This document shows positions 2,119 to 37,554 of a stretch of DNA of 48,209 nt, piece after piece (within the stretch, counting starts at the first letter, position 1; every line of letters starts with the position of its first letter). The notes beneath the pieces were generated by a model. The model was given only the letters and a program-made list of their open reading frames with translations. It did not search any database and was not told where the DNA came from. Source of the DNA: a virus; the IMG/VR virus record IMGVR_UViG_3300028030_000015, positions 1 to 48,209 of that record; one strand, written 5' to 3'. The translations under genes and the position numbers were made by a program.

Positions 2119-2140
2119 AATGATGCCTTTTGTTTTTTTA

Positions 2141-2232
2141 ATATAACGGTTTGAGGTCAGCGGAAACCGGCCAATGAGGCGGATAGATGAAAACCGCATG
2201 TTCCGGTTTTCCGCTGGAGCGATTTGTTATAC
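2141..2232. repeat. attC-like recombination site C
   Basis: A 92-base imperfect palindrome from ATATAACGG to GTTATAC (2226-2232). The arm TCAGCGGAAACCGG on the left is mirrored by CCGGTTTTCCGCTGGA on the right, leaving a short spacer. It has the same core sequence as site A. Confidence 0.7.
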
Positions 2233-4377: not shown

Positions 4378-4593
4378 GTGTTTAAAGATCGAACGGGAGT
4401 CGACCCTGACAAACTCGGGAAAGAAATTGCCAGGGTCTATAGGTCTGCAGCAAAAGCGAAATTCACAGGTACGCTTATCTTTAATTTTGCCATGAATTCC
4501 GGTGGGGTAACCTCCATACGGAGGGAGATGAAACCGTCAACAATCGAAATGTTACATGATGTGAAAAAATATCCAAAAGGAAGCATGAAATAA
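4378..4593 (+). CDS. Hypothetical small protein
   Basis: 71 residues from a GTG start with a strong ribosome site (GGAGGAG about 9 bases upstream). It lies between ssb and the late promoter. Basic, with a central hydrophobic strand (TGTLIFNFAMN) and a charged C-terminus. No family is recognised. It is probably the last gene of the transcription unit begun at 3287. Confidence 0.65.
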   Translation: MFKDRTGVDPDKLGKEIARVYRSAAKAKFTGTLIFNFAMNSGGVTSIRREMKPSTIEMLHDVKKYPKGSMK

Positions 4594-4598
4594 AAAAA

Positions 4599-4627
4599 TT
4601 GACAATTAGGAAAGATATGGCAATAAT
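4599..4627 (+). promoter_or_regulatory. Late promoter 1 (head operon)
   Basis: A perfect -35 TTGACA (4599-4604), exact 17-base spacer and -10 AATAAT (4622-4627, one mismatch to TATAAT). Predicted start near 4634. It sits between the end of the preceding gene and the leader/terminator at 4664-4750, and would drive terminase and the head genes. Confidence 0.7.
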
Positions 4628-4663
4628 GGAGCATTATTATAGTTAAATCTTTTTAGTTTAGCT

Positions 4664-4750
4664 GGATACCAAGAGCCTCCTGCAGCAGGATAGGACAACG
4701 GCCCAGTCTCGATATCGCAACATGCGGTGACGAGATTGGGCTTTTTTTTG
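4664..4750 (+). terminator. Leader attenuator 1: GGATAC box, small hairpin, intrinsic terminator
   Basis: GGATAC (4664-4669) is followed by a small TCCTG/CAGGA hairpin (about 4677-4690). After it comes a strong terminator whose stem GCCCAGTCTCG (4701-4711) pairs with CGAGATTGGGC and runs into eight T residues. The ribosome site GGAG of the terminase small-subunit gene lies directly after the T run. Transcripts from the promoter at 4599 should stop here unless antiterminated. The same arrangement recurs at 22057 and 36099. Confidence 0.75.
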
Positions 4751-4762
4751 GAGTTTTTTTCG

Positions 4763-5320
4763 ATGGGTAAACTTTTCGACGCACTTCCTCCACATTATCA
4801 AGTTTTCGTGAGCGAATATGTCACACACGGGAAAGTTGGTGATAGTGCGAAGAAATCAGGCTCTAAAGCTAAGAACTTGTCTCAGGCTGGAAAGCAATTA
4901 CTTAAAAAAGCTGAAATCAACGATGCTTTAGCTGAAATTAAAGTTGAATTAGCTGAATCTTTAGCCGCTAAACCTGAAAGAGTGCTGAAAGAACATGCCA
5001 GAATAGGGTTTTCTGATATCCGCAACCTATTTGATGATCTTGGCAGGCTGAAGCCGGTTAGCCAGATTGATGACGACCTGGCCGCTGCAATATCGTCTGT
5101 TAAGGTCGTGGCTAGGCAGACAGGTGGCGACGATCCTCTGGACGTTGAATATGTGCACGAAATTAAGCTGTGGAACAAAGGGACAGCACTGGACGCTCTG
5201 TCGAAACATCTTGGCCTGTTTGAAAAGGATAACGAGCAGAAGGGTGACCATACTGTAATCCTGCACGATCCAACTAACCCGGATGCAAAGGAAGAACCAG
5301 GGGAAGATGGCGACTCATAA
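4763..5320 (+). CDS. Terminase small subunit
   Basis: 185 residues from the ATG at 4763, with GGAG about 10 bases upstream. A GTG 36 bases earlier lies in the terminator and is not used. The N-terminal ~60 residues carry the helix-turn-helix-like pattern of terminase small subunits (YQVFVSEYVTHGKVGDSAKKSG, then a second helix), used to recognise the packaging site. The middle has the KPERVLKEHARIGFSDIRNLF segment typical of Terminase_2-type proteins, and the C-terminus is acidic. It overlaps the large-subunit gene by 14 bases from the preferred start of that gene. Confidence 0.85.
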   Translation: MGKLFDALPPHYQVFVSEYVTHGKVGDSAKKSGSKAKNLSQAGKQLLKKAEINDALAEIKVELAESLAAKPERVLKEHARIGFSDIRNLFDDLGRLKPVSQIDDDLAAAISSVKVVARQTGGDDPLDVEYVHEIKLWNKGTALDALSKHLGLFEKDNEQKGDHTVILHDPTNPDAKEEPGEDGDS

Positions 5321-9382: not shown

Positions 9383-9399
9383 AAACAAGGAGAGATTTT

Positions 9400-11976: not shown

Positions 11977-11988
11977 GGGAGAAATACA

Positions 11989-14520: not shown

Positions 14521-14534
14521 ACGAGGTTATAATT

Positions 14535-21025: not shown

Positions 21026-21026
21026 A

Positions 21027-22005: not shown

Positions 22006-22034
22006 TTGTCACAGCATGTCCGTTCTGCTATACT
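22006..22034 (+). promoter_or_regulatory. Late promoter 2 (giant gene)
   Basis: -35 TTGTCA (22006-22011), 17-base spacer, -10 TATACT (22029-22034), predicted start near 22041. It lies 8 bases past the stop of the preceding gene and just before a leader of the same design as the first late leader. Confidence 0.65.
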
Positions 22035-22056
22035 AAATAAAATCGAATAAATTATC

Positions 22057-22140
22057 GGATACTAAACGGTCCTGAGAGAAGGAAACCAATTTTAGCCCGA
22101 TTGAGCGTAGATACCTGCGTTCAATCGGGCTTTTTTATTT
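22057..22140 (+). terminator. Leader attenuator 2
   Basis: GGATAC (22057-22062), small TCCT/AGGA hairpin (22070-22083), then terminator stem AGCCCGATTGAGCG (22094-22107) with CGTTCAATCGGGCT and a T run to 22140. The GGATAC-to-GCCC distance is 38 bases, against 37 and 39 in the two sister leaders, while the terminator stem sequence differs. The RBS GGAG of the giant gene follows at once. Confidence 0.75.
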
Positions 22141-22155
22141 TCTGGAGATACCACA

Positions 22156-25100
22156 ATGGGAGATGTTTTCGACGACATACTTTCCGAGCAAGGGGCAACA
22201 CAAAGAAAACCTGACGTGTTTGACGAAATATTGTCAGGGAATAGCGGTGCAAATAGTCACAGGCTGGGCGCTGTTGCCCAGGGGCCGGTAAGTGCTGGTG
22301 GCCAGGGGGCAAAGATGGCTTCAATGGTCAGTGCCGCAGAAAATAGAATTGCAGACAACCCGGGCGGTGGCCGCATGGTTGAAGCACAGGTTTCGACGCC
22401 AGCAGCGGAATCACAATCATTAGGGCAGACACGCCTTGGAGACGTGGGGTCTTTTGCGCCCACCCATTCACCCGTTAATGAACGTGCTGCCTCTACTCTT
22501 GATGAGGGCGCGAGCAGGGCCATACAGGAGAATGAAGGCGGTGGCAGGATAATCAGAACCGCCGGTGGCCGCAAGCGGTATTCAGATCGGGGCGATCTCG
22601 AAGAACAGCCTGCAAAACCCATTGATAACCGTAGCAATTGGGAAAAGCGAGACACGTCAAAAGATAACTTTGCTCAGAGACTGTTCGCCCCGGTAATGGC
22701 CCGTAACGAATTCCAGTATAAAAATGCAGATGAGCTCAGTCCTGAAAAACAGCAGGAACAACTTAATTACCTGTTCAGCGACACCAATCCTGATTCATAC
22801 GATGCGAGCGGAACCCCTGATTACACCAGTTTCATTTCCAAGGCCCAGCACCACGGGTACGACGGAAAGACGATAAAAAAATTCCTCGATACGTCAAGCA
22901 AGGCCGATATCCCGCTTGCTCCAACAGGCGACGGTTTTTCTGGCGGCGTTGCTGAGGTAGGACGTGCCGGGGCTCGTGGGCTTGCCAAGGGAACAAAAAT
23001 GGTTGCGCAGTCTGGGCAATGGTTCACCCCTTCATCTATGGAAGAAGAGGGTATATTTAAGGACGCTGTTGACCGCATAGAGGCCGTGATAAAGCGCAAT
23101 CCACAGCTATTTGCAGAGTCTGAGAAGAATAAAGACAGATCGTGGTACAACCCGATGAAGGCGGTTGTCGGCGGAACAGAAATGGTCAGCATGATGGCTC
23201 CTGGAATGGTCATGCCAGGAGGAGTTGCCGGGCAGTTTTGGGGGGCAATGGCCCAAGAGAAGTATGACGAGTTGGCCAAAAAGAAGCCCGGCATGTCTGA
23301 AGCAAAGAAGATCGCCTATGCCACTGGGGAGGGTATTGTTCAGGGTGGGCTCGAATGGCTGCAAACCAAGATACCAGCGGGAGTTCTTGGCAAGTTTATC
23401 CCCGGGAAAGCTAAAGGCGATATTATCAGGCGAGCCGCAGGCATGGTCAAGACAGGCAAGGGTAAACTTCTTGGAACCCTTGGAGTGGCTTATCTTGGCG
23501 AGCTTGCAACTGAAACTTCCCAGGATATGGGAAGCAAGGAGCTTGATTATTTTTCAGGACTTGAGAAAGAAGGTGTAAGCCTGCGTGATATAGGTGAAAG
23601 CCTGAAGGTTAATGCTGGACCTGTTCTTTTCACTACATTCGCTTTGTCTGGTCCTGCTCATATTGCTGACAACCGGAGGCGAGAGCAGATAAAAAGCGTT
23701 TTGACCGCCAGCCCTGAAATAGTTTCCAGGCAAGACAGGATTGCAGCGGTCAAGGCTGTATATGATTCAGTTGCCGAAAGTGACAAGTCGCTTGCTAACG
23801 AATGGTTGAAAGAGGCCTTACCCATGGCCGAAATGAACCGCCCTTTGGCAATCCCAACAGATGATAAATATCTGAACAGAAAACCTGATCCGGGGGCGCT
23901 GGAGAGGAATAGGGCTGTTCTTGATTTAAAGAAACAGAACCTGCCCACCCGTGACCTGCTGGAGATGAAAAATAACCCAACTGATGGTGGTGTCTCATCA
24001 AGTGATATTGACCTCATTCTTGAGGAGAGATACGGGGAAATGGGCGAGATGTGGGATGCCCTTGACAGCGAGATGGAAAACGACCCCATAGGTCGAGCCG
24101 CAACCGGCTCTATCCGTGACGCTCTGAACGAATTGATTGGCGAAAGAGCAGCAGAACGGGACAGGGCCCAGAAAGCGGCGGACAGAACCGCCATGGATCA
24201 GGGACTTGCCGAATACAACCCTGAAGCGCCGTTCCCTGAAAGTTCTCAACGGAAATTGTTTTCTACCCCTGATGTATCTTACAGGGACGTTCCTGTTGAT
24301 ACGGAAATCAACAGTGATCTGAGTAGCGAAAGCGGCTCAACTAAAGAACCAGCGCAAAGCCTTGACAACTCCGAGCTTGACAGGCTAGGCGAAGATCTCT
24401 CGAAGTCCGGCGCAAGCAAGGAAACCGTTCATACTGTTCAGGCCGTATTGTCTGATATCAATACGGCTGATCCCGGCAGGCTTGCAGAGATGAAGGCCAA
24501 CATCGGGAATGACCTTGGCAACTACAAAGAGTTAATTCCTTTCAGCAAGGTTTTTGAAAGGGCAATATCTAAGAGGGAGCAGGAGCTATCAGGTGCTTCC
24601 ACTGTCGCCACCAAGAGTGAAGACGTGGAAGCACCTGATACTGTGGACGGCAAACAAGAACTTGCAGGCAAGGCGTATCCTCATGATGGCGGCTTTTCTC
24701 CTGTTAATATCAACCAGCAGGATAAAAACCTTCTACAAAGCGAATTGGCAAACGATTTTATGGATTCTTCGCGGCTAGTGCAAGATGCAGAGAATGCTAA
24801 AAAAAGGCGGCGCAACTTTGAGAAGTTACAGCAGGGATATGGTTCAGATGTCACTGGCCAAACCAATGCCGACGAAGATCAAGTCCAGGCCGTTGGAAAC
24901 AAGGCCTCTGTCGCTCACGGGCAGGATGTCAATGTTAATCCGTCTGATGCCCAGAAGAAAGCTGAAAATTATAAAAAAGCCCATGTGCGCCTGGATGGAA
25001 TGGATATTTCCATAGAGAACCCTGCGGGGTCAACCAGATCAGGGACAGATAAGAGCGGCCGGCAGTGGTCACAAAAGATGAAACACGACTACGGTTACTT

Positions 25101-28100
25101 TAAAGGGACTGTTGGTTTTGATAAAGACCATGTTGATGTCTTCTTCAAAGGTGGCTACAAGGGCGGAGCCAAGAAGGTCTATATCGTCAACCAGTATGAC
25201 GGAAACAAATTTGACGAGCACAAGGTCATCATTGGAGATACCACCAAGGCCGGAGCTTTGAAAACATACAACGCCAACTACGAGAAGGGGTGGAAAGGCG
25301 GAAAAGATGTTGTTGAAATGTCAATGGATGATTTCAAAGAATGGGTGAAATCAGATGCGCCGAAACAAGGGCCCGCTGTCGGCAAGGTGACTCTTGGAAC
25401 AAAAAAAGCAAGTAAGCCCGGGCAGGTTACAAAAAAACTCACCAAGCGACAGCGGGAAATAATGAACTGGCTCAATGCCGGAAACTCTTTCAAGGATTTT
25501 GATATTGTCCCTGAGAAGAAACAGCCGATTGATACAGGATACCGGCCAAGCCCAAAAGTTATCGGTAACCTGATTAACAAGGGGCTTATCGAATTCCTTC
25601 CCAATCACGGTGAAAATGGTGAATGGTATTCCGTAAAGGTGATTGAGCGTGACAATATGCGCAAGGTTGACACGGAGATCACCCGTGGAAACGAAAAACC
25701 AAATCTCACGTTACGGGCAGAGGCTCAGGAGGCATTAAGCAAAAATCTACCAAAAGAAACAACAAACCAAGAGGATTTTATTCTTGCTCCAGGTGGAGGT
25801 CTTGATTTTGGAGAGATATCCAGAGAACAAGCAAATCTCATGCGTCGGCAAGCTGGAAAAATCAGGTTACAGCAGGGGCGGGATGACGATACTGCCCGTT
25901 TCGGGTTGGTTCACATTGAGAAGAGCCATGCGAATGACTTACCAGAGGTGAAGGAAGGCAATGTGCCTGATCTCGTAAAAGATATTGCGACCAACTTTAA
26001 TGAGATTTGGTCGGCATATGCAGGACAGTTGTTGTTGGTGAAGAGAAATGGTTCTGACAAGATTGCCTACATACAACTCAAGCCATCGGAAGATGCAGAC
26101 TTTTACACCGTAAATACAGTTTTCAGGTCACGAAAGCATAAAGGTAAAGAATTGCTTTGGTCTGCTACGCACGCACAGGCCGGTTCGACCGACAAGAACC
26201 CCGATTTTGCGGAAAACCCCAACAAGGCCGGTGGGGAAGCCCCAAACGTTACACCGGAAAGCAAATCTTCTGTTGATAATGTATCCTCTAAGCACTCACA
26301 AGTCAAGACGGATCAACGGGAAACACCGACAGGCGACAAGGCAGTTGTCACTACGCAAAATGAAGGGCCTGATCAGGCTGTTGCAGACAACGTAAAAACA
26401 AGCCTTGAACAGCATGAAAAAATTACATACCAACAGCTTTTTAAATGGGCTGATGATGCTTACGGCGGAACGCAGGGAGAGAACAAATACACACCTAAAG
26501 ACGCCTACGACGCCTTAGAGCTTGGTATTAATCAGTATATTGACAGCACCGCAAAGTTGAACCCGTCAGCAACGGAAAACCCCTCTGCTGCTCTTAATCT
26601 GCTTGCAGAAAATGTGATGTCGCTGATACCTACGCAATCAAAGCGAACGGAAGAAATGGACGAATTTCAGCAGTTTTCAACACCTCCACCGCTTGCTTAT
26701 ATGGCAAACTGGGTGGCCAAACCACAAAAAGGTGAAACATACCTGGAACCAAGTGCAGGCGTGGGCGGTATCGCAGTTTTCGGAAAGAATTCAGGGGCCA
26801 ACGTCGTTGTTAACGAACTCTCTGATCGCAGGCGTGGCCTTATCAGGCAGATGGGCTTCGACAGGGTGTTTGGCGAAAATGCAGAACACTTGAACTCTAT
26901 TTTACCAGCAGATGTAAAGCCGACGGTTATTGTGATGAATCCGCCATTCTCTGCCACTGCTGGCAGGATACAGGGGAAACGTGCGACGCAGGTGGGGGCC
27001 CAGCATGTTGAACAGGCATTGAAGCGCCTGGAACCAGGGGGGCGGTTGGTTGCCATTGTCGGCGAGGGCATGGCCATGGATAAGCCTTCTTTTAGTGGCT
27101 GGTGGAACAAAATAAAGGATGAGTATAATGTCCGGGCGAATATTGGGCTGAGCGGCAAAGGGTATCGTAAATACGGCACCACATTTGACAACCAGATGCT
27201 GGTAATTGACAAAACAGGACAGACAACAGATAATATAGTTACCGGGAAAGTCGACAGCCCGGCTGACCTTGTGCCACTACTGGAGGGCATACGCAATGAC
27301 AGAGAAAACGTTCAATCGCGACAGGTTGAGCAGGATAGCAAAGAAAAAGCTGCAGGAAGCAGGAGCAAAGGACGAGTTTCTGGACCCGGACCGGTGGTAT
27401 CCTCTCAGCCTGATGAGATGGGGCCTGGAAAACGGTCTGGACATGAAGGAGCGAACGACATATCTCAACATCCTGGAGCTATATCTTCCGTTCGAAGATC
27501 CGCGAAAGATACACCAGTTCATGGCGACAGCGGACAATATAGAGGGGGACAACCTGCAGCATCTTCTAAAAAAGCAAATGACTCCAAAAGAAGCGGCATG
27601 GGAGCTGTTGGACGTGCTGGAGACAGCGATAAAGGCAGCCCCGTATCCGTACAAAGATCCGCTGCCGAGGATATACCACGAGAGCTGCGTGTAGACGTTG
27701 CTCGGAATAGTGAATACTCTAACGTAAGTATTTCAGATTCTGTTTACGAAGAGTATAAACCTGAAAAGGTAAGAGTTCCTGGCGCAAAGAAGCACCCTGC
27801 CCCGCTTGCTCAAAGTGCGGCCATGGCTTCAGTATCGATGCCTGATCCTTCATATTCTCCAAAACTTCCGAAAAGAACAATTAAGTCTGGGGCGTTAAGC
27901 GATGCACAGCTTGAAGCTGTTGTTTATGCCGGTCAGGCGCACACGAGAGAACTGCCAAACGGTGAACGGCAAGGGTTCCTTATTGGTGATGGAACCGGCC
28001 TTGGCAAAGGTAGAGAGGTCGCAGGCATAATCTGGGATAACTGGAACCACGGACGAAAGAAGGCGGTGTGGATCTCTGAAACAAGTAATTTATTTAAGGA

Positions 28101-31100
28101 TGCAAAACGTGATATTGCCGGTATAGGATGGGATTCGGATGTCATTTTCCCTCATTCAAAAACAAAGGCCACAGGATCACTTCCCACTGGAGATGGGGTG
28201 TTATTTACAACATATAGCACGTTAAAGTCATCAGCAAGGGGCACCTCTGCCAAACCAGGGAAAACGAGGCTACAGCAGATAGTGGATTGGCTCGGAAAAG
28301 ACTTTGACGGGGTTATTGCCTTTGACGAATCGCACAATATGGGAAACGCTGTTCCTGTGAAAGGGAAAAGGGGCAATACTACCCCCTCCAAGATGGCATT
28401 GGCAGGGGTGGAACTGCAACAGTTGTTGCCGAAGGCAAGGGTAGTCTACCTCTCGGCTACAGGCGCTACTGAGATTCAAAACTTTTCCTATGCCGAACGT
28501 CTGGGCTTGTGGGGAGAAGGGACGGCATTCTCAAACAAGATGAGTTTCATTGATCAAATTTCTTCCGGCGGGACAGCAGCTATGGAGCTTATCGCCAGGG
28601 ATATGAAGTCAATGGGGGTATATCTTTCAAGGTCTATCAGTTATGACGGTGTGGAATATGACAGGGTTGAACATAATTTGTCAGAAGATCAATATAAAAT
28701 GTATAACACTGTTGCCGGAGCATGGCAGACCGTGTTGCAGAATATAAATGAGGCCATAGGCATTACCGGGGCAGATAATCGCGGCAGGGCTAAGGCGATG
28801 TCAGACTTCTGGGGCGCTAATCAACGGTTTTTCAGCCAGTATATCACTACATTGCAGATGCCATCTGTTCTCAAGTCTATTCATGATGATATTAAAAATG
28901 GCGATTCTGTTGTAATTCAACTGGTGAACACCTTTGAGGCTGCGACTGAACGAGGCCTGGCTAAACTTGATGAAGGGATGTCTATTGAGGATCTTGACAT
29001 ATCTCCTTTTGACGACCTGATGCTTCTGGTTGAACGCAGCTTCCCCGTCACGCAGTACGAGACATATACAGACGATAATGGAGCAGAGAAAAGCAGGCCG
29101 GTACAAGACTCAAAGGGTAATCCTGTCCTCAATGCAGATGCGGTAAAGATGCGTGAGCAACTGCTTGACGAGCTTGGCTCTATCAGAGGTGAAGTTGCTG
29201 ACAATCCCCTTGACCAGATTCTTGATGAGTTTGGTGTCGATAATGTAGCAGAGGTGACCGGCAGGAAAAGGCGAGTTGTCTGGGTGGAAAAAGACGGGCG
29301 GAAGAAGCGAGTGATCCAGAAAAGAAGTAAGGCCTCTGGCAGGGCTGACACACAAGACTTTATGGATGACAAGAAACGCATTCTCTTCTTCTCTCAGGCT
29401 GGTGGCACAGGTAGCAGTTATCATGCCGACAACACGGCAATCAACACAAGGAAGCGTCAGCACTATCTCCTGCAGCCTGGGTGGAGGGCAGACCAGGCCG
29501 TTCAGGGCTTAGGGCGAACCCACAGGTCGAATCAAAAGCAGCCGCCACGGTACAGGCTTGTAACTTCAAACCTGAAGGGACAGAAGCGTTTTCTCTCTTC
29601 CATTGCCCGTCGCCTTGAACAGCTCGGAGCCCTGACCAAGGGGCAGCGGCAAACAGGGAACCAGGGGATATTTAGCGAACGTGACAATCTGGAAAGCCCT
29701 TATGCTAAGGATGCTCTGCGCAAGCTGTTCCTTGATCTTGACAGGGGTCGAGTTGCAGGAATAACAATGGGCGAGTTCGAGAAGCAAACAGGACTCAACC
29801 TGACGGATAGTGATACCAGCAGACTGAAAGAAACACTCCCTGACGTTATACAGTTCTTGAATAGAATCCTAAGCATGGATGTCGATAGCCAGAACACGGT
29901 ATTCGATGAATTTTCACAGAGAATCGATGCTGTACTTGCTGCCCATGCCAAGGCCGGGACGCTTGATGTTGGCATGGAGACTCTTAACGCAGAGAGTGTG
30001 CGAAAGGTAAAGGAAATACCTGTCTACACCGATAAACTATCTGGTGCTGAAACTCGATATGTGAAATTGGCAGTAACAAATCCTGCGCAGCGGTTGTCTT
30101 TTGTAAACTCCAAACAATATGCCAACGATGGATATTATCAGAACAAGATAAGCGGGAAGACATGGGCTGTTACCAGGAGAATGTTGACCAACAGGAAGAC
30201 TGGGCAGGTTGTTGATACTATGGTGTTAACTTCTCCAACTTACAGAAAACAGAACATTCCATCCTCTGAGTTCGGGGAAAAGAAATGGAACAAACTCAAG
30301 AAAACAGAGGCGAAAAAATACTGGAATGATGATCTTGATAGTGTCCCGGCAACAACAACCTCTACAGAACACCTGATAACAGGAGCATTATTGCCAATTT
30401 GGGATAAGCTCAGCGGTAACCCTCGTATTATGCGGATACAGACAGACGATGGTGAACGGATGATCGGGCGAATGATCCCTGATGAAGCACTTGATAGTGT
30501 GCTTGATGCTCTAGGGGTAGATTCTACAGGGGCAAAGACAACTATCGATATGCCTGCAGTTGATGTATTCAGCAACGTCATTGACGGAGGAGATACAATC
30601 AGCCTCGCTGACGGCACCAGAATAGAGCGTCGCCGGGTATCTGGTGAAAATAGGATTGAAGTTAAAGGCCTCAATCGAGCAGATTTTCATAATCTTGAAA
30701 AGTACGGCATGTTTTCAGAGAGGATCAACTACCAGACAAGATACTTCGTTCCAACAACAAAAGATGGTGTGAAGATTATAGAAAAATTGACGGTTCGTAA
30801 CCCTATATCAAGCGTTAATGGGAGAAAGTCCTCTAAACCTGCGGAATTATCTGTTGATGGCGATGGCGCAAAGAGCACACCCCTCTACTCCAGGGCTGGA
30901 AAGAGATTGGCCGTCCTTGATAAAAAAGTATCGGCAACCAGAATCACGCTCAACAAAGCAATCACCCCGCAACAGGCAAAGCGCATTTATAATAATAAAA
31001 TCAAGGGGACTGAGCAGGTAAATAATGATACAGGGTGGAGCATAGGGTTTTCGGCCAAAGGAAGAGGCAAGGCTTTTTCGCATGGGCGCAAGCAGTCTGC

Positions 31101-34100
31101 GCATCTATCGTCAATTGTCGGTCTGAAAGAAATAGTGAAAAACGCTGTTCTGTTTAACACCGAAACTCTGCGCGAAGGGGAAAAAGTACATACTTTCTTT
31201 TCCTTGCTTGATATCGATGGAACGGCATACCGGGCAAAAATAATTGTTCGGGAGGATGGGCAGGGAAGAAAATTCTACGATTTGTCAGAGTCTGGAATAA
31301 GAAAGTCCCGTGTCCCTAGCAGGCTGCTTCGTGCCCAAGAGCATGAATCATCACCTACGACTCCGGGACTTTCTATTAAGACTTTAGATGATCTTCTGTC
31401 CATTGTCAATGATGAGTTTCATCACTACTCAAAAAACAGCCGTTCATCTTCCGGCTCAACCGTCACCCAAGCCAGTCGTGCAGTGCGTAAATTTCTGGGC
31501 AAGACCGGGTATATGAGGTGGAGGGCTGACAGGATTATTAGAATAATCGATAGCTCAAAAGCTCCGCCAAAACATACAGATAAGTTTTATACTCCAGATG
31601 GGAAACGTGTCGCAGGATATTATCATCCAAATGACGGCAGTATTACCCTGATAGCCGACAATATCAAACCTGAAGAGGTTGAGGGGGTGCTGCTGCATGA
31701 AGGGGTACACCGGCTGCTTGATACTGATAAGACGTTTATTAAAGACCGTGGCAATCTGTTGGCCTCGTTTGAAGCCCTGCAAGATGGAAAAGATCGTCAG
31801 TCTGATGCCGTTAAGGCCGCATTTAACAAGGCACGGCAAGCCGAGCCAGGTGGTAATGCTGATCTGATTCGGGAAGAGGCACTTTCGTACTACCTACAAG
31901 ACAAGGCGAACCGTACTCTCCCGCTTTACCGTAAAATTATCGCAGCGGTCAAGCGCGCCTTGCGCAGACTCGGCATACCTACCGGCAAACTCACTGCTGA
32001 TGATATTGTTGGTATCTTTGTTGCAGGGGTTAAGAAAGACGCAGCCAACTACAACGGGGAGAAATCAGGCGCAAGCCCCACCAGCGCAAGCAGTATTAAG
32101 AAATCTTATGCTGGCTTGTCTTCTGCAACAGCAGACAAGACTGCTCTCGATAAAGCTGTAGAAATGTATAGAAACGATTCTGATATAGAAACTATACGCC
32201 AAGAAACCGGATGGCATCTAGGTAAAGATAATAAATGGCGATATGAAATCGATGATAGTAAAGCATCGTTTGATTTCGGGAAAATACCAGAAGAGCAGCC
32301 AAGGATAAAACTTGCCGAATCTTACCTGAAAGAAAAACATAATATTCAGGCAAAATTCCCCATTGGTGATCCGAGAGTCCCGCAAAAGTTACAGAAAGAA
32401 GCCCTGGCATGGGCTGACAGCAGCCGGAAGCGGAACACTGTAAAGCTGGATACTGTTCTTGACCACAAGGAGTTGTTTGACGCATATCCTGAGCTGAGGG
32501 ACGTAAACATTGCGACAGAGACCGACCCTACGCTTGAAGGCAGCTACAACCCAGATACCAACACGGTGAGCGTTTCAAAAAACTTTATAACCTCGACAGA
32601 CGAAGATGCTTTCAAAACTTTGCTCCACGAGTTGCAGCATAAGATCCAGACAATAGAAGGTTTTGCTCCCGGTGGTCATCCTTCGCAGTTTGGTGGAAAT
32701 GTAGGAAAATATCAGAAACTCCATGGCGAGATTGAGGCCCGTGATACCTCTACCCGTAAAGACCTGACAGCTGAACAGCGGAGAGCTCTTCCCCCGTATG
32801 TTTCTGAAGGCATACCGATGGAAGATGCCATTGTCAAATTTTCCAAGGTTAATAATGCCAGCATCATAAAAGAAGGCTTCACGGAAGATCAGGAATCAGT
32901 TGTCCATCAAGCAGACAGGGTGATAAATAAAGATGACATAAGTTCGTTTGCAAGGGTCTTTTCTTCGTTTGAATACATGTCTCGAAAGAGTAAGGCTGCT
33001 TGGCGTGTAATGGAGGCACAGCTTTCAAGACGCGACAACAAGCATATCATGGAAACCAATATTGTCGGAGACTTTAACGATGTTGCCAGCGCCCTGAAGA
33101 AAGAAGATGAAAAACTATATGGAGAGTTCAGCGACTATCTGGTTGATATTGACCGGACAGGGAAGGCTTTTTCTGTGCGGGGCCAGTCAGGATGGACGGT
33201 TACCACGCCTGACGGTGCTTACGTCGGGACAGCTACCACCAAGGAGAAGGCCTACGCAATGAGCCAGGAAGCGGCAAAGGCCCATAACGCAAAGGCAAAG
33301 ATTAACGGTACAAAACAGTATCTAGTCAGGGATTACCCGGTTAATGAGGCTTCAGGATGGGAAGTCATCGGCCCTAAAGGTGAAGTGTTGAAGATAGCAG
33401 CATCTGAAAAAGAAGCTGTTGCTGAAATGATGGCTGCTGAAGCTAAGCAGATGGCAAAAGACAAGATAAACCGTAAGGTTATCAGGGCGGTTATGGCCTT
33501 TCGCGGCATGACAAACAGGGCCTTTGATGAAATGGTCGCTGATATGCGACGGGTGATAGCTGAGGCAGAAGAACAGGGCCTTGACATGCCGAGCGTTGAT
33601 GTCGTTGATGAGTCGAGACGGTGGGCCATATTCGGGCAACACCAGAAGAAGCCGACCGCAACCTTTTCTACCAGGGCAGAAGCTGAAGCGGCATTGCGTG
33701 AGCTTTCAAAGGTTCAGACGAAGACTGGTAAACGCCGGATAGCTGGTAAGCCGATGCCAGCTTATGATATTAAAAAACAGGACGATAGCGATATTATGAA
33801 GTCAATTACCATTAAGGAGGCCATTTCCTTAATGGGCGACTTGCGGGGGGCGTATTTCCCGCGTACAAGAAAACCTGGAGGGATAATACTCAAAGCCTAT
33901 AACAAAAAGGGGAACCGGAAATTCTTGAAAAAATTTGATTTTGCGATGCTCGAAAAACGGGGGATCGTCAACGAATGGGACGGAACAATTAAAGATGACG
34001 GTCTGATAGTCTCCAAGCTGAAAAAAGTCTTTAACGCTCTTACACCGCTTGGGGCTGAGATTCGCCGCTTGGAGAAACAGGGCTTTGAAGTTGAGGTCTC

Positions 34101-36036
34101 AAAGGACGAATCCTTGCCTGAAGATGTTTTTGAAGCGACGCAGCTCATGTCATCTGTTAATGCTCTCCTTGAAAAATCTCTTGATGCAGCGAAGAAGAAA
34201 GATCAAGGGGCCCATGAAGAGGCAGCGGCAGAGTTAAACAAAATCCTTACAGCAAATATTGCCGATATATTCAAACAGCGTGGTTACCTCAGTTCCAGAT
34301 TGAAACGATCTGATGACTATTACGAGGGATTTGAAACTGATCCTATCAAGGCCGGCGTTCAATATGCTCGTGGTCTTTCTGCAGGCATGGCAAAGAAACG
34401 GGCAGCAAGGGAGATGGTGCTTGCCCTTGCCGGTCGTGATATTCCTTATAAGCAGTGGCAGGATGATACGGGCAAAAGTGACTACACTGAATACCTTGAT
34501 TTTGTCGCAAGCAGGAGGATTGACCCTGGCAAGCAAAAGAACCTTTACGCTGAAACGATGTCATTTATTCGTGAGGTATTGAGGAATGAAGAGCGCTCAG
34601 ACCGTATCATGGGGACACTGCAGGGATTGACAGTTCTTAAATTCCTTGGTTTTCGGGTAAGCTCTGCTGCCGTAAACTTAACCAATATGGTGCAGGGCGT
34701 CCCCGCTACCATGAGCGGACATACAGGCTTATCTCTCACCAAATCGCTTAATCTCATCAGGCGCTCAGCAGTTGAGTACGGAAAACTACGATTGGGTAAG
34801 TCAAGTGGTGTGAACAAAGCTATTTTTGATTATGTGACAGATATGGGCTGGGATGAGGCACAATTCAACACCGACTTATACGGAGCCCTTAGATCAAAAA
34901 CGGAAGGTATTTATGACAGCGTTTCCGCCTTTTCCATGCTTGCCTTCGGTGTGACAGAGAAGGCTAACAGGGCTATGACACACTGGGCAGCGTACAAAGC
35001 TGTTATGAAATCACAGGGTAAAAAAATCACGGCAGAGATTGACGAATCCGCCATGAAAAAAGCTCATGAAATTTCAGACCGTGCGCATGGTGTTTACGGG
35101 AAAGAAACAAAGCCAGCCTGGACCCGTGGCGCATGGAACCCTTTAAAAATGGCATTCACTTTTCAGAAGTTCGGGCAAAACTACATGTTGAACATGTTGG
35201 AGCTTGGTTTTGATAAAAAGGATTACAAGGCAGCTGCGTACATGCTGCTCTCCCCTGCTGTCCTGGCCGGGGCCGGGGCCAGCATTGTAACGCCTCTCCT
35301 TGCCTCGATAGCTTCCGGGCTTGGTATAGGTGGCGATGATCCGGAAGAAGAGTTTTATGCCTGGGCCCGGGAGACGTTCGGAACTGACCGAGTATTTAGG
35401 AATGGCATTGCCGGTCTTGGCGGGATAAACCTCAAGGGATCTCTGCAAATAAATATGCCGTTCCCTACAAACATGAAGGAGATGATGACAACGCCTTTGA
35501 TCTCTGTTGCTGGTGCCCCTGGAGGTGTGATAAAAGATGAGTACGACGCAATCAACTACCTGTTACGCGGGGACGGCATGAAGAGTCTGGAAAAAATGTT
35601 ACCTACAGGACTGGGCGCACCTATTAAAGCGTACCGTGAGGGTACGCAGGGAATAACCACTAAAGGGAACTCTCCTGTCTTTTATGGGAACAAACCGCTC
35701 AAGGCTGATCGTACCGACATGGTTATGCGAGCGTTTGGATTTAACCCTGCAAAATTGTCTGGAATACGTGAAAGACAGTGGAGCGAAAGAAAAGTGTCGA
35801 AAGAATACAGCAAAATGAAGTCTGATATATCCGCCAGAGTAAAAGCCTGGATGCTCGGAGGAAGAGACAAGCAGGAGTGGGAAGATATTCTGGCAGATAT
35901 TCTGAAATTTAATGAGCGGGTAAAGACGAGGCGACCTTTTGGAGTTACCCCGATAACGAGAAAAACGCTTAGGCGATATATCAGATCTACGACCAAGGCC
36001 CCGAGGCGTGAACGAATGAGGCGTAGAACTGTGTGA
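22156..36036 (+). CDS. Giant polyvalent protein: DarB-like methylase/helicase with nuclease, peptidase and LPD modules
   Basis: 4,626 residues, GGAG ribosome site. Order by approximate residue: two tandem 'DVFD-IL' motifs (3-9, 20-26); a membrane-active-looking Gly/Ala region (260-510); an acidic linker; a phage inorganic-pyrophosphatase-like domain with GFDKDHVDVFFKG...FDEHKVIIGDT (935-1065); a winged-helix-like segment (1094-1162); a BECR-type nuclease-like domain (1206-1337); an adenine methylase with LEPSAGVGG and NPPF (about 1426-1687, NPPF at 1595). Next is a low-complexity linker (1714-1846) over an embedded gene, then a strawberry-notch-type helicase with GDGTGLGKG (1944), DESH (2057), LSATG, and AVQGLGRTHRSNQ (~2450). 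An LPD-like module (2909-3092) and two metallopeptidase-like sites, HEGVH (3181) and HELQH (3491), follow. The C-terminus holds an LPD38-like region (4155-4415) with a hydrophobic stretch (4359-4394). P1 DarB combines the same methylase-helicase core and enters cells with DNA to block restriction. By analogy this protein is likely packaged and ejected. Confidence 0.88.
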   Translation: MGDVFDDILSEQGATQRKPDVFDEILSGNSGANSHRLGAVAQGPVSAGGQGAKMASMVSAAENRIADNPGGGRMVEAQVSTPAAESQSLGQTRLGDVGSFAPTHSPVNERAASTLDEGASRAIQENEGGGRIIRTAGGRKRYSDRGDLEEQPAKPIDNRSNWEKRDTSKDNFAQRLFAPVMARNEFQYKNADELSPEKQQEQLNYLFSDTNPDSYDASGTPDYTSFISKAQHHGYDGKTIKKFLDTSSKADIPLAPTGDGFSGGVAEVGRAGARGLAKGTKMVAQSGQWFTPSSMEEEGIFKDAVDRIEAVIKRNPQLFAESEKNKDRSWYNPMKAVVGGTEMVSMMAPGMVMPGGVAGQFWGAMAQEKYDELAKKKPGMSEAKKIAYATGEGIVQGGLEWLQTKIPAGVLGKFIPGKAKGDIIRRAAGMVKTGKGKLLGTLGVAYLGELATETSQDMGSKELDYFSGLEKEGVSLRDIGESLKVNAGPVLFTTFALSGPAHIADNRRREQIKSVLTASPEIVSRQDRIAAVKAVYDSVAESDKSLANEWLKEALPMAEMNRPLAIPTDDKYLNRKPDPGALERNRAVLDLKKQNLPTRDLLEMKNNPTDGGVSSSDIDLILEERYGEMGEMWDALDSEMENDPIGRAATGSIRDALNELIGERAAERDRAQKAADRTAMDQGLAEYNPEAPFPESSQRKLFSTPDVSYRDVPVDTEINSDLSSESGSTKEPAQSLDNSELDRLGEDLSKSGASKETVHTVQAVLSDINTADPGRLAEMKANIGNDLGNYKELIPFSKVFERAISKREQELSGASTVATKSEDVEAPDTVDGKQELAGKAYPHDGGFSPVNINQQDKNLLQSELANDFMDSSRLVQDAENAKKRRRNFEKLQQGYGSDVTGQTNADEDQVQAVGNKASVAHGQDVNVNPSDAQKKAENYKKAHVRLDGMDISIENPAGSTRSGTDKSGRQWSQKMKHDYGYFKGTVGFDKDHVDVFFKGGYKGGAKKVYIVNQYDGNKFDEHKVIIGDTTKAGALKTYNANYEKGWKGGKDVVEMSMDDFKEWVKSDAPKQGPAVGKVTLGTKKASKPGQVTKKLTKRQREIMNWLNAGNSFKDFDIVPEKKQPIDTGYRPSPKVIGNLINKGLIEFLPNHGENGEWYSVKVIERDNMRKVDTEITRGNEKPNLTLRAEAQEALSKNLPKETTNQEDFILAPGGGLDFGEISREQANLMRRQAGKIRLQQGRDDDTARFGLVHIEKSHANDLPEVKEGNVPDLVKDIATNFNEIWSAYAGQLLLVKRNGSDKIAYIQLKPSEDADFYTVNTVFRSRKHKGKELLWSATHAQAGSTDKNPDFAENPNKAGGEAPNVTPESKSSVDNVSSKHSQVKTDQRETPTGDKAVVTTQNEGPDQAVADNVKTSLEQHEKITYQQLFKWADDAYGGTQGENKYTPKDAYDALELGINQYIDSTAKLNPSATENPSAALNLLAENVMSLIPTQSKRTEEMDEFQQFSTPPPLAYMANWVAKPQKGETYLEPSAGVGGIAVFGKNSGANVVVNELSDRRRGLIRQMGFDRVFGENAEHLNSILPADVKPTVIVMNPPFSATAGRIQGKRATQVGAQHVEQALKRLEPGGRLVAIVGEGMAMDKPSFSGWWNKIKDEYNVRANIGLSGKGYRKYGTTFDNQMLVIDKTGQTTDNIVTGKVDSPADLVPLLEGIRNDRENVQSRQVEQDSKEKAAGSRSKGRVSGPGPVVSSQPDEMGPGKRSGHEGANDISQHPGAISSVRRSAKDTPVHGDSGQYRGGQPAASSKKANDSKRSGMGAVGRAGDSDKGSPVSVQRSAAEDIPRELRVDVARNSEYSNVSISDSVYEEYKPEKVRVPGAKKHPAPLAQSAAMASVSMPDPSYSPKLPKRTIKSGALSDAQLEAVVYAGQAHTRELPNGERQGFLIGDGTGLGKGREVAGIIWDNWNHGRKKAVWISETSNLFKDAKRDIAGIGWDSDVIFPHSKTKATGSLPTGDGVLFTTYSTLKSSARGTSAKPGKTRLQQIVDWLGKDFDGVIAFDESHNMGNAVPVKGKRGNTTPSKMALAGVELQQLLPKARVVYLSATGATEIQNFSYAERLGLWGEGTAFSNKMSFIDQISSGGTAAMELIARDMKSMGVYLSRSISYDGVEYDRVEHNLSEDQYKMYNTVAGAWQTVLQNINEAIGITGADNRGRAKAMSDFWGANQRFFSQYITTLQMPSVLKSIHDDIKNGDSVVIQLVNTFEAATERGLAKLDEGMSIEDLDISPFDDLMLLVERSFPVTQYETYTDDNGAEKSRPVQDSKGNPVLNADAVKMREQLLDELGSIRGEVADNPLDQILDEFGVDNVAEVTGRKRRVVWVEKDGRKKRVIQKRSKASGRADTQDFMDDKKRILFFSQAGGTGSSYHADNTAINTRKRQHYLLQPGWRADQAVQGLGRTHRSNQKQPPRYRLVTSNLKGQKRFLSSIARRLEQLGALTKGQRQTGNQGIFSERDNLESPYAKDALRKLFLDLDRGRVAGITMGEFEKQTGLNLTDSDTSRLKETLPDVIQFLNRILSMDVDSQNTVFDEFSQRIDAVLAAHAKAGTLDVGMETLNAESVRKVKEIPVYTDKLSGAETRYVKLAVTNPAQRLSFVNSKQYANDGYYQNKISGKTWAVTRRMLTNRKTGQVVDTMVLTSPTYRKQNIPSSEFGEKKWNKLKKTEAKKYWNDDLDSVPATTTSTEHLITGALLPIWDKLSGNPRIMRIQTDDGERMIGRMIPDEALDSVLDALGVDSTGAKTTIDMPAVDVFSNVIDGGDTISLADGTRIERRRVSGENRIEVKGLNRADFHNLEKYGMFSERINYQTRYFVPTTKDGVKIIEKLTVRNPISSVNGRKSSKPAELSVDGDGAKSTPLYSRAGKRLAVLDKKVSATRITLNKAITPQQAKRIYNNKIKGTEQVNNDTGWSIGFSAKGRGKAFSHGRKQSAHLSSIVGLKEIVKNAVLFNTETLREGEKVHTFFSLLDIDGTAYRAKIIVREDGQGRKFYDLSESGIRKSRVPSRLLRAQEHESSPTTPGLSIKTLDDLLSIVNDEFHHYSKNSRSSSGSTVTQASRAVRKFLGKTGYMRWRADRIIRIIDSSKAPPKHTDKFYTPDGKRVAGYYHPNDGSITLIADNIKPEEVEGVLLHEGVHRLLDTDKTFIKDRGNLLASFEALQDGKDRQSDAVKAAFNKARQAEPGGNADLIREEALSYYLQDKANRTLPLYRKIIAAVKRALRRLGIPTGKLTADDIVGIFVAGVKKDAANYNGEKSGASPTSASSIKKSYAGLSSATADKTALDKAVEMYRNDSDIETIRQETGWHLGKDNKWRYEIDDSKASFDFGKIPEEQPRIKLAESYLKEKHNIQAKFPIGDPRVPQKLQKEALAWADSSRKRNTVKLDTVLDHKELFDAYPELRDVNIATETDPTLEGSYNPDTNTVSVSKNFITSTDEDAFKTLLHELQHKIQTIEGFAPGGHPSQFGGNVGKYQKLHGEIEARDTSTRKDLTAEQRRALPPYVSEGIPMEDAIVKFSKVNNASIIKEGFTEDQESVVHQADRVINKDDISSFARVFSSFEYMSRKSKAAWRVMEAQLSRRDNKHIMETNIVGDFNDVASALKKEDEKLYGEFSDYLVDIDRTGKAFSVRGQSGWTVTTPDGAYVGTATTKEKAYAMSQEAAKAHNAKAKINGTKQYLVRDYPVNEASGWEVIGPKGEVLKIAASEKEAVAEMMAAEAKQMAKDKINRKVIRAVMAFRGMTNRAFDEMVADMRRVIAEAEEQGLDMPSVDVVDESRRWAIFGQHQKKPTATFSTRAEAEAALRELSKVQTKTGKRRIAGKPMPAYDIKKQDDSDIMKSITIKEAISLMGDLRGAYFPRTRKPGGIILKAYNKKGNRKFLKKFDFAMLEKRGIVNEWDGTIKDDGLIVSKLKKVFNALTPLGAEIRRLEKQGFEVEVSKDESLPEDVFEATQLMSSVNALLEKSLDAAKKKDQGAHEEAAAELNKILTANIADIFKQRGYLSSRLKRSDDYYEGFETDPIKAGVQYARGLSAGMAKKRAAREMVLALAGRDIPYKQWQDDTGKSDYTEYLDFVASRRIDPGKQKNLYAETMSFIREVLRNEERSDRIMGTLQGLTVLKFLGFRVSSAAVNLTNMVQGVPATMSGHTGLSLTKSLNLIRRSAVEYGKLRLGKSSGVNKAIFDYVTDMGWDEAQFNTDLYGALRSKTEGIYDSVSAFSMLAFGVTEKANRAMTHWAAYKAVMKSQGKKITAEIDESAMKKAHEISDRAHGVYGKETKPAWTRGAWNPLKMAFTFQKFGQNYMLNMLELGFDKKDYKAAAYMLLSPAVLAGAGASIVTPLLASIASGLGIGGDDPEEEFYAWARETFGTDRVFRNGIAGLGGINLKGSLQINMPFPTNMKEMMTTPLISVAGAPGGVIKDEYDAINYLLRGDGMKSLEKMLPTGLGAPIKAYREGTQGITTKGNSPVFYGNKPLKADRTDMVMRAFGFNPAKLSGIRERQWSERKVSKEYSKMKSDISARVKAWMLGGRDKQEWEDILADILKFNERVKTRRPFGVTPITRKTLRRYIRSTTKAPRRERMRRRTV
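27296..27694 (+). CDS. Embedded gene inside the giant gene, +1 frame
   Basis: 132 residues from ATG 27296, with a ribosome site GGAGGG about 8 bases upstream. It is wholly inside the giant gene but in the +1 frame. Its product has ordinary globular composition: a charged helical start (MTEKTFNRDRLSRIAKKKLQ), then WYPLSLMRWGLENGLDM, a Leu/Ile-rich core, and a C-terminal helix ending in a Pro-rich tail (KAAPYPYKDPLPRIYHES). The giant frame across the same bases encodes a Ser/Gly/Lys/Asp-rich linker between methylase and helicase, so that frame looks unconstrained. No family recognised; no start-to-stop interruption over 399 bases. It may be a separate phage protein, or a gene that was trapped between two fused genes. 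Confidence 0.6.
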   Translation: MTEKTFNRDRLSRIAKKKLQEAGAKDEFLDPDRWYPLSLMRWGLENGLDMKERTTYLNILELYLPFEDPRKIHQFMATADNIEGDNLQHLLKKQMTPKEAAWELLDVLETAIKAAPYPYKDPLPRIYHESCV

Positions 36037-36044
36037 AAATATGC

Positions 36045-36073
36045 TTTACGCATTAAAACTGCTGTGATATTGT
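36045..36073 (+). promoter_or_regulatory. Late promoter 3 (accessory/lysis block)
   Basis: -35 TTTACG (36045-36050), 17-base spacer, -10 TATTGT (36068-36073), start near 36080. Weaker than the two sister promoters, but at the same distance before a GGATAC leader. Confidence 0.5.
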
Positions 36074-36098
36074 CAGGCAACATTTGAATAGTTTGACC

Positions 36099-36187
36099 GG
36101 ATACTTTTAAGACTCCCGATCGGGGAAAGTGCAATTAGCCCGGTATTGAAGCGGATAAAACCGCCTCGATACCGGGCTTTTTTTATT
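36099..36187 (+). terminator. Leader attenuator 3
   Basis: GGATAC (36099-36104), a small TCCCGATCGGGGA-type hairpin (about 36114-36126), then AGCCCGGTATTGAAGCGG (36137-36154) pairing with CCGCCTCGATACCGGGCT and running into seven T. The GGATAC to GCCC distance is 39 bases. The gene at 36247 follows, after a 60-base gap. Confidence 0.75.
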
Positions 36188-36246
36188 TTATCAGCAAGGG
36201 AAACGCCGCCATACACATAGATACAACCAAAACATAGGTGAACATC

Positions 36247-37554
36247 ATGGGAGTTAGCAAAGCGTATAAAGTCCTCAGTATATTATATGCAGTAAGAAGT
36301 GGCGGGGCCAGGCCACAAATAAGCGAAGAAGATTGGGAAGCTGCATTAACTGAAGCATCCGACCCACACTGCCAAATCTGGACAGACCACGCCCCGCCTG
36401 CTGGCTGGGATGACATCCCCGCCGGGGTTGTTGTCTCCTATTACAACAGCGATCCAGGGGCAGACTACCCGGCAAAAATACTGCGACGCCAGGTGAGCGG
36501 CGGGTACATGCTGCTTAACTATAATGCCGAGGCCAGCCTGTACAGCGCAGGCTGGGAGTATCAGGGGCGCATCCCGTTTGGCAAATACGGAGATCCGCAG
36601 TCGGTTGCTGACGGATATGCGGCTGTTTTGGGGGGGAGCTTGTCGCCTGATGAGTCAAAACTTGCGATCTGCTGCTACAACGATATGTGTGTACGTGTTT
36701 TTGACACGGTGGCAAAAACTGTCCTGTGGACATTTGGTGACGGATCGCTCGGCAACGTCGAGGATGGCAGAGCGGCCAGGCCGAGGGACTGTGAGTGGTT
36801 GCCAAACGGCAACCTTATAGTCTCCTGTGTGGACGGCACCGGCCATGCGCCTACAAACAACTACGGATCAGTATTTGAGTTGGCAGCGGCTGACGGGGCA
36901 GTGGTTGCAATCAGATTGGAGTACACCACCGATAATCTCGGTCGGATGAACCGTGATGGGGTCTATGACCCATACGGTATGTGCCTGATAGGTGACACCC
37001 TGTATATCGGATCGCTTGGGCTTGATGAGATAGGAGCATTTGACGTAACGCCTGGTAACTTCGATTTTATCCGGACTTACAAAAAGCCCCGTGGTCTCCC
37101 TGCAGATGCAGTCGATCCCTTGTGTATGTGCGAGGGGCCGGACAATACCCTGATAGTCTACTCTAACAGCACCAAAATATTTGCGGCTATTAACCTGGCA
37201 ACAGCAAAGGTTGTGTGGACAACTGGCATTACAGGATTTGATGCAAAGTCAAGCCCTAATAATAGGCCTCATGAGTTATGGGGTGTGCAGGGCTGTCTAT
37301 GGGATACTGCCAATAACCGCCTGTTGGCGGCTGACTATGGTAACCGGCGAGTAATGGGGCTGATCAACAGCAACAGCCACACGATACAGTACACCATCAC
37401 AGCCCCGGCAGGGTACGAACTGTCAGTTAAGCCACAAGGCTACGATCCAGATACCCAGATTTTGTCCATCCCGGTCAACGAGGTGGCAGGCCTCGGGTAT
37501 TCCTGCGCCGATAAAGGACACATCGTCCTGGGCTGGAAAAAGAGGTGTGAGTAA
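36247..37554 (+). CDS. Beta-propeller-like virion/fibre protein
   Basis: 435 residues from ATG 36247 (AGGTG upstream; a GTG nine bases earlier is possible). The N-terminal ~100 residues are a separate beta domain. The remainder has six or so repeats of the NHL/WD type, for example 'GGSLSPDESKLAICCYNDMCVRVFDTVAKTVLWTFGDGSLG', 'GNLIVSCVDGTGHAPTNNYGSVFELAAADGAVV', 'GDTLYIGSLGLDEIGAFDV' and 'NNRLLAADYGNRRVMGLIN'. Such propellers bind glycans or proteins. It follows the third leader directly and overlaps the start region of the next gene. The role as a fibre or adhesin is inference. Confidence 0.65.
   Translation: MGVSKAYKVLSILYAVRSGGARPQISEEDWEAALTEASDPHCQIWTDHAPPAGWDDIPAGVVVSYYNSDPGADYPAKILRRQVSGGYMLLNYNAEASLYSAGWEYQGRIPFGKYGDPQSVADGYAAVLGGSLSPDESKLAICCYNDMCVRVFDTVAKTVLWTFGDGSLGNVEDGRAARPRDCEWLPNGNLIVSCVDGTGHAPTNNYGSVFELAAADGAVVAIRLEYTTDNLGRMNRDGVYDPYGMCLIGDTLYIGSLGLDEIGAFDVTPGNFDFIRTYKKPRGLPADAVDPLCMCEGPDNTLIVYSNSTKIFAAINLATAKVVWTTGITGFDAKSSPNNRPHELWGVQGCLWDTANNRLLAADYGNRRVMGLINSNSHTIQYTITAPAGYELSVKPQGYDPDTQILSIPVNEVAGLGYSCADKGHIVLGWKKRCE

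Follow-up and report, generated by a model that had tools for sequence, protein, structure and literature searches.

Antitermination as a control of late genes is known in detail for few model phages. In lambda, the small phage protein N acts with the RNA site nut, and terminators are passed by the polymerase so modified. Other arrangements are described in published accounts. The lambda Q protein loads at a DNA element at a sigma-dependent pause (PMC7171158). The put RNA of phage HK022, of ~70 nt with two stem-loops, belongs to early promoters and works with no phage protein (PMC9378689). In the AlpA system a promoter is followed by an intrinsic terminator, which the regulator lets the polymerase bypass (PMC9371919, PMC7969949). 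The LoaP/dfn system of Bacillus velezensis has a hairpin in the leader with a terminator behind it, and a dedicated hairpin-binding protein promotes readthrough (PMC12691694).

The DNA studied here, referred to as the window, is the whole of a 48,209-base virus record of a tailed phage. The phage is probably temperate, because an integrase and a CI-like repressor are encoded; an SSB, a small terminase subunit (TerS) and a 4626-aa ORF are also present. The large subunit, TerL, has its closest relative among the phage records searched in that of Burkholderia phage BcepC6B (46.5%). Our analysis gives good support to a two-part late-gene control module, in which an RNA element present in three copies would act in cis and a protein of 50-70 aa in trans. 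We could show the anatomy of the module, the conservation and covariation of its RNA, and that protein and element go together in several phage lineages. Descriptions of the RNA element or the small protein were not found in the text portions searched of the open-licence PMC literature, and the available part of a survey of 104 RNA motifs (PMC2864571) contains no such phage late element.

Three copies of the element in the window

The window holds three pairs of GGATAC and terminator, as the preliminary description stated, with the hexamer at 4664, 22057 and 36099 and the terminator stems starting at 4700, 22094 and 36137 (Table 1). The distance from the start of GGATAC to the start of the stem is nearly constant at 36, 37 and 38 nt; the values of 37-39 given earlier are the same distances counted slightly differently. 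It is also correct that the three stems share the form GCCC...GGGC-T yet differ in sequence. By our own terminator score these are the only plus-strand terminators of the window above the cut, with one more on the minus strand. A stock terminator scan, which accepts no mismatch and loops of up to 8, finds the copy 2 terminator alone of the three, and its terminators are not in excess over shuffles in the first 40 kb. GGATAC has 24 matches on both strands of the window (15.8 expected), a count reached by 3 of 100 shuffles. From the 15 matches on the plus strand, the chance of finding the hexamer in a 7-nt span for one given terminator is 0.0022, so that its presence at three of three terminators lies far beyond chance, despite a hexamer chosen post hoc.

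Table 1. Positions in the window of the small ORF, the parts of the three element copies and the genes behind them
Feature	Position	Strand	Basis or remark
Small ORF, 71 aa, GTG start, candidate antiterminator	4378..4593	+	GGAGGAG ribosome site by eye
Copy 1 promoter TTGACA-17-AATAAT	4599..4627	+	0.2% of random 90-mers score as high
Copy 1 box TGGATAC	4663..4669	+	
Copy 1 bulged hairpin CC-TCCTG(CAG)CAGGA-[TA]-GG	4676..4694	+	
Copy 1 intrinsic terminator with T-run	4700..4749	+	own terminator score; absent from stock scan
Terminase small subunit TerS, first late gene behind copy 1	4763..5320	+	PHROG 51 / PF03592
Copy 2 promoter TTGTCA-17-TATACT with TG	22006..22034	+	
Copy 2 box CGGATAC	22056..22062	+	
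Copy 2 bulged hairpin GG-TCCT(GAGAGA)AGGA-[AA]-CC	22068..22087	+	
Copy 2 intrinsic terminator	22094..22137	+	own score and stock scan
4626-aa ORF behind copy 2	22156..36036	+	ORF call
Copy 3 weak promoter-like site TTTACG-17-TATTGT with TG	36045..36073	+	equalled by 6% of random 90-mers
Copy 3 box CGGATAC	36098..36104	+	
Copy 3 bulged hairpin AC-TCCC(GATCG)GGGA-[AA]-GT	36112..36130	+	
Copy 3 intrinsic terminator	36137..36185	+	own terminator score; absent from stock scan
438-aa ORF behind copy 3	36238..37554	+	no PHROG match

The start codons behind the copies lie 20 nt (TerS, 4763), 24 nt (22156) and 59 nt (36238) past the end of the stem, and transcripts into these genes must therefore cross a strong terminator. 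TerS alone of the three has a family match; for the other two genes, the label late is derived from their position. No PHROG match was obtained with the first 500 aa of the 4626-aa ORF; relatives of these 500 residues and of ORF 36238 were not confirmed in viral contigs, nor was a TerL alignment in genome contigs, and a nucleotide search of the element region against phages gave no match. The copy 1 promoter, earlier called perfect, falls one position short (11/12), with a -10 of 5/6. The late promoter as such holds for copies 1 and 2, in which the terminator sits between promoter and late genes; the promoter-like site of copy 3 is weak, and a promoter is not a fixed part of the arrangement, being absent between small ORF and box in other phages. 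Likewise the small hairpin is not significant by energy in any window copy taken alone (p = 0.19, 0.10 and 0.21 against mononucleotide shuffles), and plain folding pairs the outer part of the copy 3 hairpin otherwise; it is the comparison across phages that bears the hairpin out.

Rfam at its curated gathering scores gave no match in the window, in the related loci L002-L005 described below or in 8 further loci; the best sub-threshold match within 4590-4770 was NsiR1 (E 0.37). Elsewhere in the window, a perfect 40-nt direct repeat (21333-21372 and 21399-21438, 66 nt apart) lies inside ORF 21018-21998. A ClpP-like protease gene (1540-2199, minus strand, PF00574) is situated outside the head gene block, and the plus-strand gene at 2245-3114 encodes a Radical-SAM-like protein by PHROG 9298 (E 5e-86), with no Pfam match.

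The element in other phages

A scan with TerL yielded 29 loci. In four of them (L002-L005) TerS is immediately preceded by a terminator. Upstream lies a promoter-like site that 0-1% of random 90-mers equal in score, and a box and small hairpin come between the two. In the window and these four loci the promoter-like site ends 18-37 nt before the box (weak for copy 3). GGATAC was rejected as the defining motif, since L002 has CTGACAC, L003 has CGGTCCC and L004 and L005 have CGGAGCG in its place. Relatives without box and hairpin, which the preliminary description counted against its proposal, do exist (L006, L007, L008 and L011), and L002-L005 keep both parts. The four former loci have a promoter-like site before TerS and, by eye, no terminator; the stretches searched there (in L007, ~1.2 kb upstream of TerL) held no match to the small protein, which fits absence of the whole module. 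In two loci of the TerL scan, L009 and L010, intein-like sequence (GCLSGDTEF..., by eye) occurs around 9101-10011, just before the matched TerL part, and judged from this sequence TerL may be interrupted by an intein in both.

The covariance search proposed in the preliminary description did bring out further copies. A model of seven sequences, taken from the window and L002-L005, was applied to 12 whole records. It matched its five source records, some of them also on the reverse strand with the terminator part only, and found second copies (L063, L064) at E 0.009 and 8e-4 in the records of L004 and L005, 29-31 kb downstream. Reverse-strand terminators by themselves reach 16-28 bits, a range that includes the scores of these copies (20 and 25), so the terminator alone could account for these scores. 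Box and bulged hairpin were recognized by eye in both; with a second model, R2, the two copies score 34 and 46 bits, the latter being a member of the R2 training set. Their promoter-like sites are weak, and they precede a gene that looks lipoprotein-like by eye and has no PHROG match. The other seven records gave no match to the seven-sequence model, and two BcepC6B regions gave none with model R1. In L004 a minus-strand pair (8625-9153) that we take to resemble BrnA/BrnT stands between small ORF and late promoter, and in L005 what is presumably an IHF/HU-like gene (by eye; 8718-9083, minus strand) has a similar place.

An independent scan used the DNA pattern CGGATAC - 18-40 - AGCCC - 20-50 - GGGCTTTTT, which covers box and terminator only and has no term for hairpin or protein. 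It returned 30 viral stretches, 24 of them distinct. For these loci (L065-L094) the pattern itself forces conservation of GGATAC and of the GCCC stem, which we therefore leave out of the evidence. It also raises their R1 scores, with non-elements among them at up to 23 bits. The segment from box to terminator folds better than its shuffles (p <= 0.07) in 13 of the 24 and does not in the other 11. One of the 13, L077, has no R1 match at E <= 1 and looks like chance, and in L090 plain folding prefers another hairpin. Nine of the 13 folded loci have an upstream ORF of the small-protein family, seven recognized by a profile (HMM) and two (L081, L089) by hand, against none of the 11 unfolded loci by HMM. 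In these nine the ORF, of 52-72 aa, ends at the box or within 63 nt of it. In seven distinct loci 1-10 nt separate the stop codon of the small ORF from the start of the box, in L090 box and ORF overlap, and a stop codon close to the box is also seen in L121 and L131. No promoter can lie in such a gap or overlap, and the promoter was accordingly dropped as a fixed part of the module.

The genes behind the element differ among these loci. In the group of L093 the next gene looks scaffold-like by eye and is followed by the major head protein (PHROG 9953 for L093, L089 and L131), and in L075 the next gene is TerS. No family ORF was found for L092, which carries the RNA element, or in the stretch of L078 that was searched; the element-like RNA of L078 (667-748, 39.9 bits with R1), on a 331-kb contig, may be a true member or a chance match. 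Several copies per record occur in G018 (at 11987, 15239 and 39654, with the same scores in G020 and G027), where the copy at 11987 follows a small ORF ending in '...TGPVNLEVNMTQGMINN...', and the sister locus L069 has one further copy. Over 45 sources (603 kb), R2 found 13 elements at 34-72 bits with the best other match at 23; five of the 13 (window copy 3, L063, L111, L115 and L118) are outside its training set.

The box is degenerate and usually reads CGG(A), with L002 (CTGACAC), L131 (CAGATAC) and the virus MetMV (AGGATAT) as deviants. Between box and terminator lies one bulged hairpin of about 20-30 nt, and the terminators mostly have 6-23 uninterrupted pairs followed by a T-run. In the common fold of the hairpin 2-5 pairs form the outer stem and 3-9 pairs the inner one; a bulge, frequently rich in A, interrupts the 3' side, and the loop size is 3-8. 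The outer pairs vary (CC/GG, GG/CC, AC/GU, AGA/UCU, GC/GC, UUUA/UAAA, UUUG/CAAA, AAAG/CUUU, UUAA/UUAA), as do the loops (CAG, GAGAGA, GATCG, ACCA, AACC, GCAA and others). MAFFT, applied to whole elements, failed to align the hairpin correctly, and we did not judge covariation from these alignments; a hairpin grammar was derived from the same nine sequences that it scores. Covariation was assessed by a swap test, in which the 5' flanks were paired with the 3' flanks of other elements and compared with the own pairs. The own pairs win with p = 0.0002 (20 elements), and in subsets with p = 0.002 (8 elements of the first phages) and p = 0.0004 (12 others); for six later elements alone, two of them mis-parsed, p = 0.21. 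The test keeps base composition and ignores kinship, and its parameters were not blind, as the hairpins had been read by eye before it was written. Its hairpins were chosen by a scoring script; L002, L064, L090, L111 and L118 were kept without an outer stem, which was missed mostly through a wrong inner hairpin. Near-copies were left out (L005, of L004, also from the set of 26 elements used below; L087, of L070), and L078 is in the swap test and absent from the set of 26. The recurrence of a hairpin with covarying stems in independent phages upholds the earlier view of a structure under selection.

Two motifs recur within the set of 26 elements, some of which are close relatives. GGA is present in the stretch from box to terminator of 22 elements, where 9.5 would be expected, and GGATA is contained in the terminator of 10, against an expectation of 0.94. 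Repeats of GGA are suggestive of CsrA-type recognition; the small proteins have no CsrA match in Pfam.

A small protein family linked to the element

The family beside the element consists of proteins of 50-70 aa with a GG motif. In an alignment of fourteen members M1 and two G are invariant and a third G is nearly so, and the C-terminal half fits a beta-hairpin. The predicted fold has one helix and two strands, in a model of mediocre quality (pLDDT 72.6, pTM 0.50), with which a PDB fold search gave nothing at E <= 0.001 (best E 0.89). The small proteins match no Pfam or PHROG family below E 0.06, and tblastn against phages and plasmids gave matches at E 5 or worse, or none.

A founder HMM was built from five proteins (window, L002, L003, L004 and L005) and run on the 2987 ORFs of the 24 pattern loci. 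Seven of the eight best ORFs (ranks 2-8) end at the element; the first rank goes to an opposite-strand ORF in L072, the 11 unfolded loci contribute no ORF to the top eight, L089 is at rank 18 and L081 is not among the best 40. When held out of the HMM, the window small ORF was the best non-training ORF (E 0.0022); with L004 and L005 both dropped, these two were at ranks 25 and 12. The dN/dS ratio is 0.15 for L004/L005 and for L070/L072 and 0.54 for L070/L087, two further pairs being saturated at silent sites; the small protein is thus under purifying selection in two of three scorable pairs.

The reverse search, with scans for the protein motif, led to 13 viral loci and two genome loci, of which seven were new. 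Six of the seven have an element in downstream position and in the same orientation (R2, 38-54 bits); they represent three distinct types, one also present on a Deltaproteobacteria MAG contig (L121). The seventh, L122, is a 10-residue chance match. An extended HMM search covered 57 held-out loci, with the 15 training loci excluded along with loci listed by hand as overlapping or near-duplicate. Its top two of 8153 ORFs were the small ORFs beside the elements of L115 and MetMV, both weak (E values of 0.017 and 0.15).

MetMV (MK170447) is called a Methanosarcina virus on in-silico evidence only, according to its description (PMC7164591). Its annotated hypothetical gene 14520-14789 encodes the small protein and is followed by the element and then by the capsid gene block; its capsid protein and that of L093 share 58% identity, and the rest of the record has no R2 match at E <= 1. 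The element of this virus (L118, 5521-5972) has an intrinsic terminator of bacterial type despite the archaeal host assignment. The archaeal polymerase differs in its use of hairpin terminators of the bacterial kind, and the host assignment may deserve a second look.

Packaging genes differ among the phages that share the module. The window TerS has no tblastn match in L002-L005 at E 1e-4, and the TerL of L075 has PHROG matches that the window TerL is without. On account of these differences, protein and element seem, as judged by sequence comparison, to have stayed together while the packaging genes changed. The module appears to be shared by phages whose terminase and capsid genes are unrelated, and possibly by an archaeal virus.

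Proposed mechanism and relation to known systems

The preliminary description suggested an antitermination system based on a put-like RNA or a Q-like protein. The core of that idea is supported, in that the hairpin comes back with covarying stems in independent phages and transcripts into the genes behind have to pass a strong terminator. In place of the choice between put-like RNA and Q-like protein stands a new small protein family with ties to the element, and a logic like that of N/nut or LoaP/dfn becomes likelier than put alone or Q. We consider it reasonably probable, from the sequence comparisons, that the small protein antiterminates through the box and hairpin RNA at late-gene terminators. 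The default state would be a polymerase halted by the terminators that precede TerS, the giant gene and ORF 36238. Either a transcript ending with the first copy or a promoter further upstream would supply the small protein. After its accumulation, the protein would bind nascent RNA at the box and bulged hairpin, perhaps by way of repeated GGA(UA) motifs, and let the polymerase read through all copies at once, so opening the late segments together. The GGA and GGATA repeats may be further contacts, and binding there could in addition interfere with the terminator hairpin itself. Four points of this scheme are inferred from sequence: arrest of transcription at the terminators, binding of the RNA by the protein, antitermination rather than the opposite effect, and the time course.

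Several other explanations were weighed. The RNA alone could make RNA polymerase resistant to terminators, as the nascent put RNA of HK022 does without protein (PMC9378689), the small protein then having another role or a tuning one; box and bulged hairpin directly before a terminator make a plausible cis element. We regard this as unlikely, since it leaves the reciprocal linkage with one protein family unexplained, put has ~70 nt and two stem-loops where the element has one hairpin of about 20-30 nt, and the terminator behind every copy would presumably serve no purpose if RNA alone abolished termination. A protein that binds the box as DNA, loads on the polymerase near the promoter and is carried past the terminator, in the manner of Q or AlpA, would suit the window and L002-L005, whose promoter-like site 18-37 nt before the box repeats the lambda pR' layout. 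It is distinctly improbable given the covarying hairpin, which points to RNA, the small ORF that abuts the box in seven loci and overlaps it in L090 with no promoter between, and the lack of a match to PF03589 or PF06530 in the window. The sign of regulation is presumably not fixed by sequence, and a protein encoded before the first copy, where an autogenous repressor might sit, could repress by stabilising the terminator, with late genes expressed by basal readthrough. This too we hold to be quite improbable: most of the terminators look efficient by themselves, with 6-23 uninterrupted pairs and a T-run, and the need for TerS, scaffold and capsid behind them would call for a positive factor.

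The closeness of stop codon and box (1-10 nt in seven loci, and close in L121 and L131) could also mean that the small ORF is a leader peptide and that a ribosome over the box decides whether the terminator forms. Such translation-coupled attenuation was rejected as the main model and appears very unlikely, because a promoter lies between ORF and box in the window, in L002 and in L003, the ORF is 0.8-1.1 kb from the box in L004 and L005, and window copies 2 and 3 have no such ORF directly before them; moreover, amino-acid conservation across lineages, with dN/dS of 0.15 in two of three scorable pairs, points to a trans-acting protein. There may, lastly, be no regulator, the hairpins serving processing or stability or being partial terminators that merely lower late expression, for U-runs do not prove termination and the evidence is drawn from sequence. 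That would leave the recurring box, the bulged hairpin and the linked protein unexplained, and we give it hardly any weight.

With antitermination by the small protein as the preferred reading, we see a slightly better than even chance that the system is a new class, in which an RNA-binding protein of 50-70 aa and of no known family acts on a repeated unit of CGGAUAC-like box, bulged hairpin and terminator, one to several per phage, as a regulon-wide late switch. Antitermination itself is already known; what would be new, on present comparisons, is an RNA element and a protein outside the named systems, the RNA element and tiny protein being linked across lineages that differ in packaging and head genes. 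If confirmed, a family of hypothetical proteins would have a testable function and late-gene onset would be easier to predict from sequence.

Among the known systems, put shares with the element the position of a cis RNA before phage terminators and is set apart by its two stem-loops against one hairpin here, a distinction drawn from the published description of put. The AlpA arrangement resembles copies of the element in its promoter followed by an intrinsic terminator and differs in that the binding element of AlpA lies within the promoter. With lambda Q, pR' and tR', the locus has in common a regulator gene, here a candidate, just upstream of a late promoter and a terminator between this promoter and the late genes; unlike Q, it has a covarying RNA hairpin, several copies and promoters that are not always present. 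The Q families PF03589 and PF06530, whose controls matched, have no match in the window, and for a third, PF06323, the control itself gave no match. Lambda N/nut is similar in pairing a small phage protein with a (here predicted) RNA site. It differs in that the element has no fixed boxB-type loop and no boxA was seen in it by eye, its copies stand directly at late-gene terminators, and the protein is here predicted to be a helix with a beta-hairpin. LoaP/dfn may be likened to the module, by analogy, in its small RNA hairpin, the intrinsic terminator behind it and a dedicated protein, here a candidate. LoaP is a NusG paralog of antibiotic operons, whereas here phage late genes are concerned and no NusG family match occurs in the window (PF02357, with 10 of 14 controls matched); the dfn hairpin has a UNCG tetraloop, whereas here the loops vary and a 3' bulge recurs. 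If confirmed, the module would offer a further small protein-RNA antitermination pair to compare with N/nut and LoaP/dfn.
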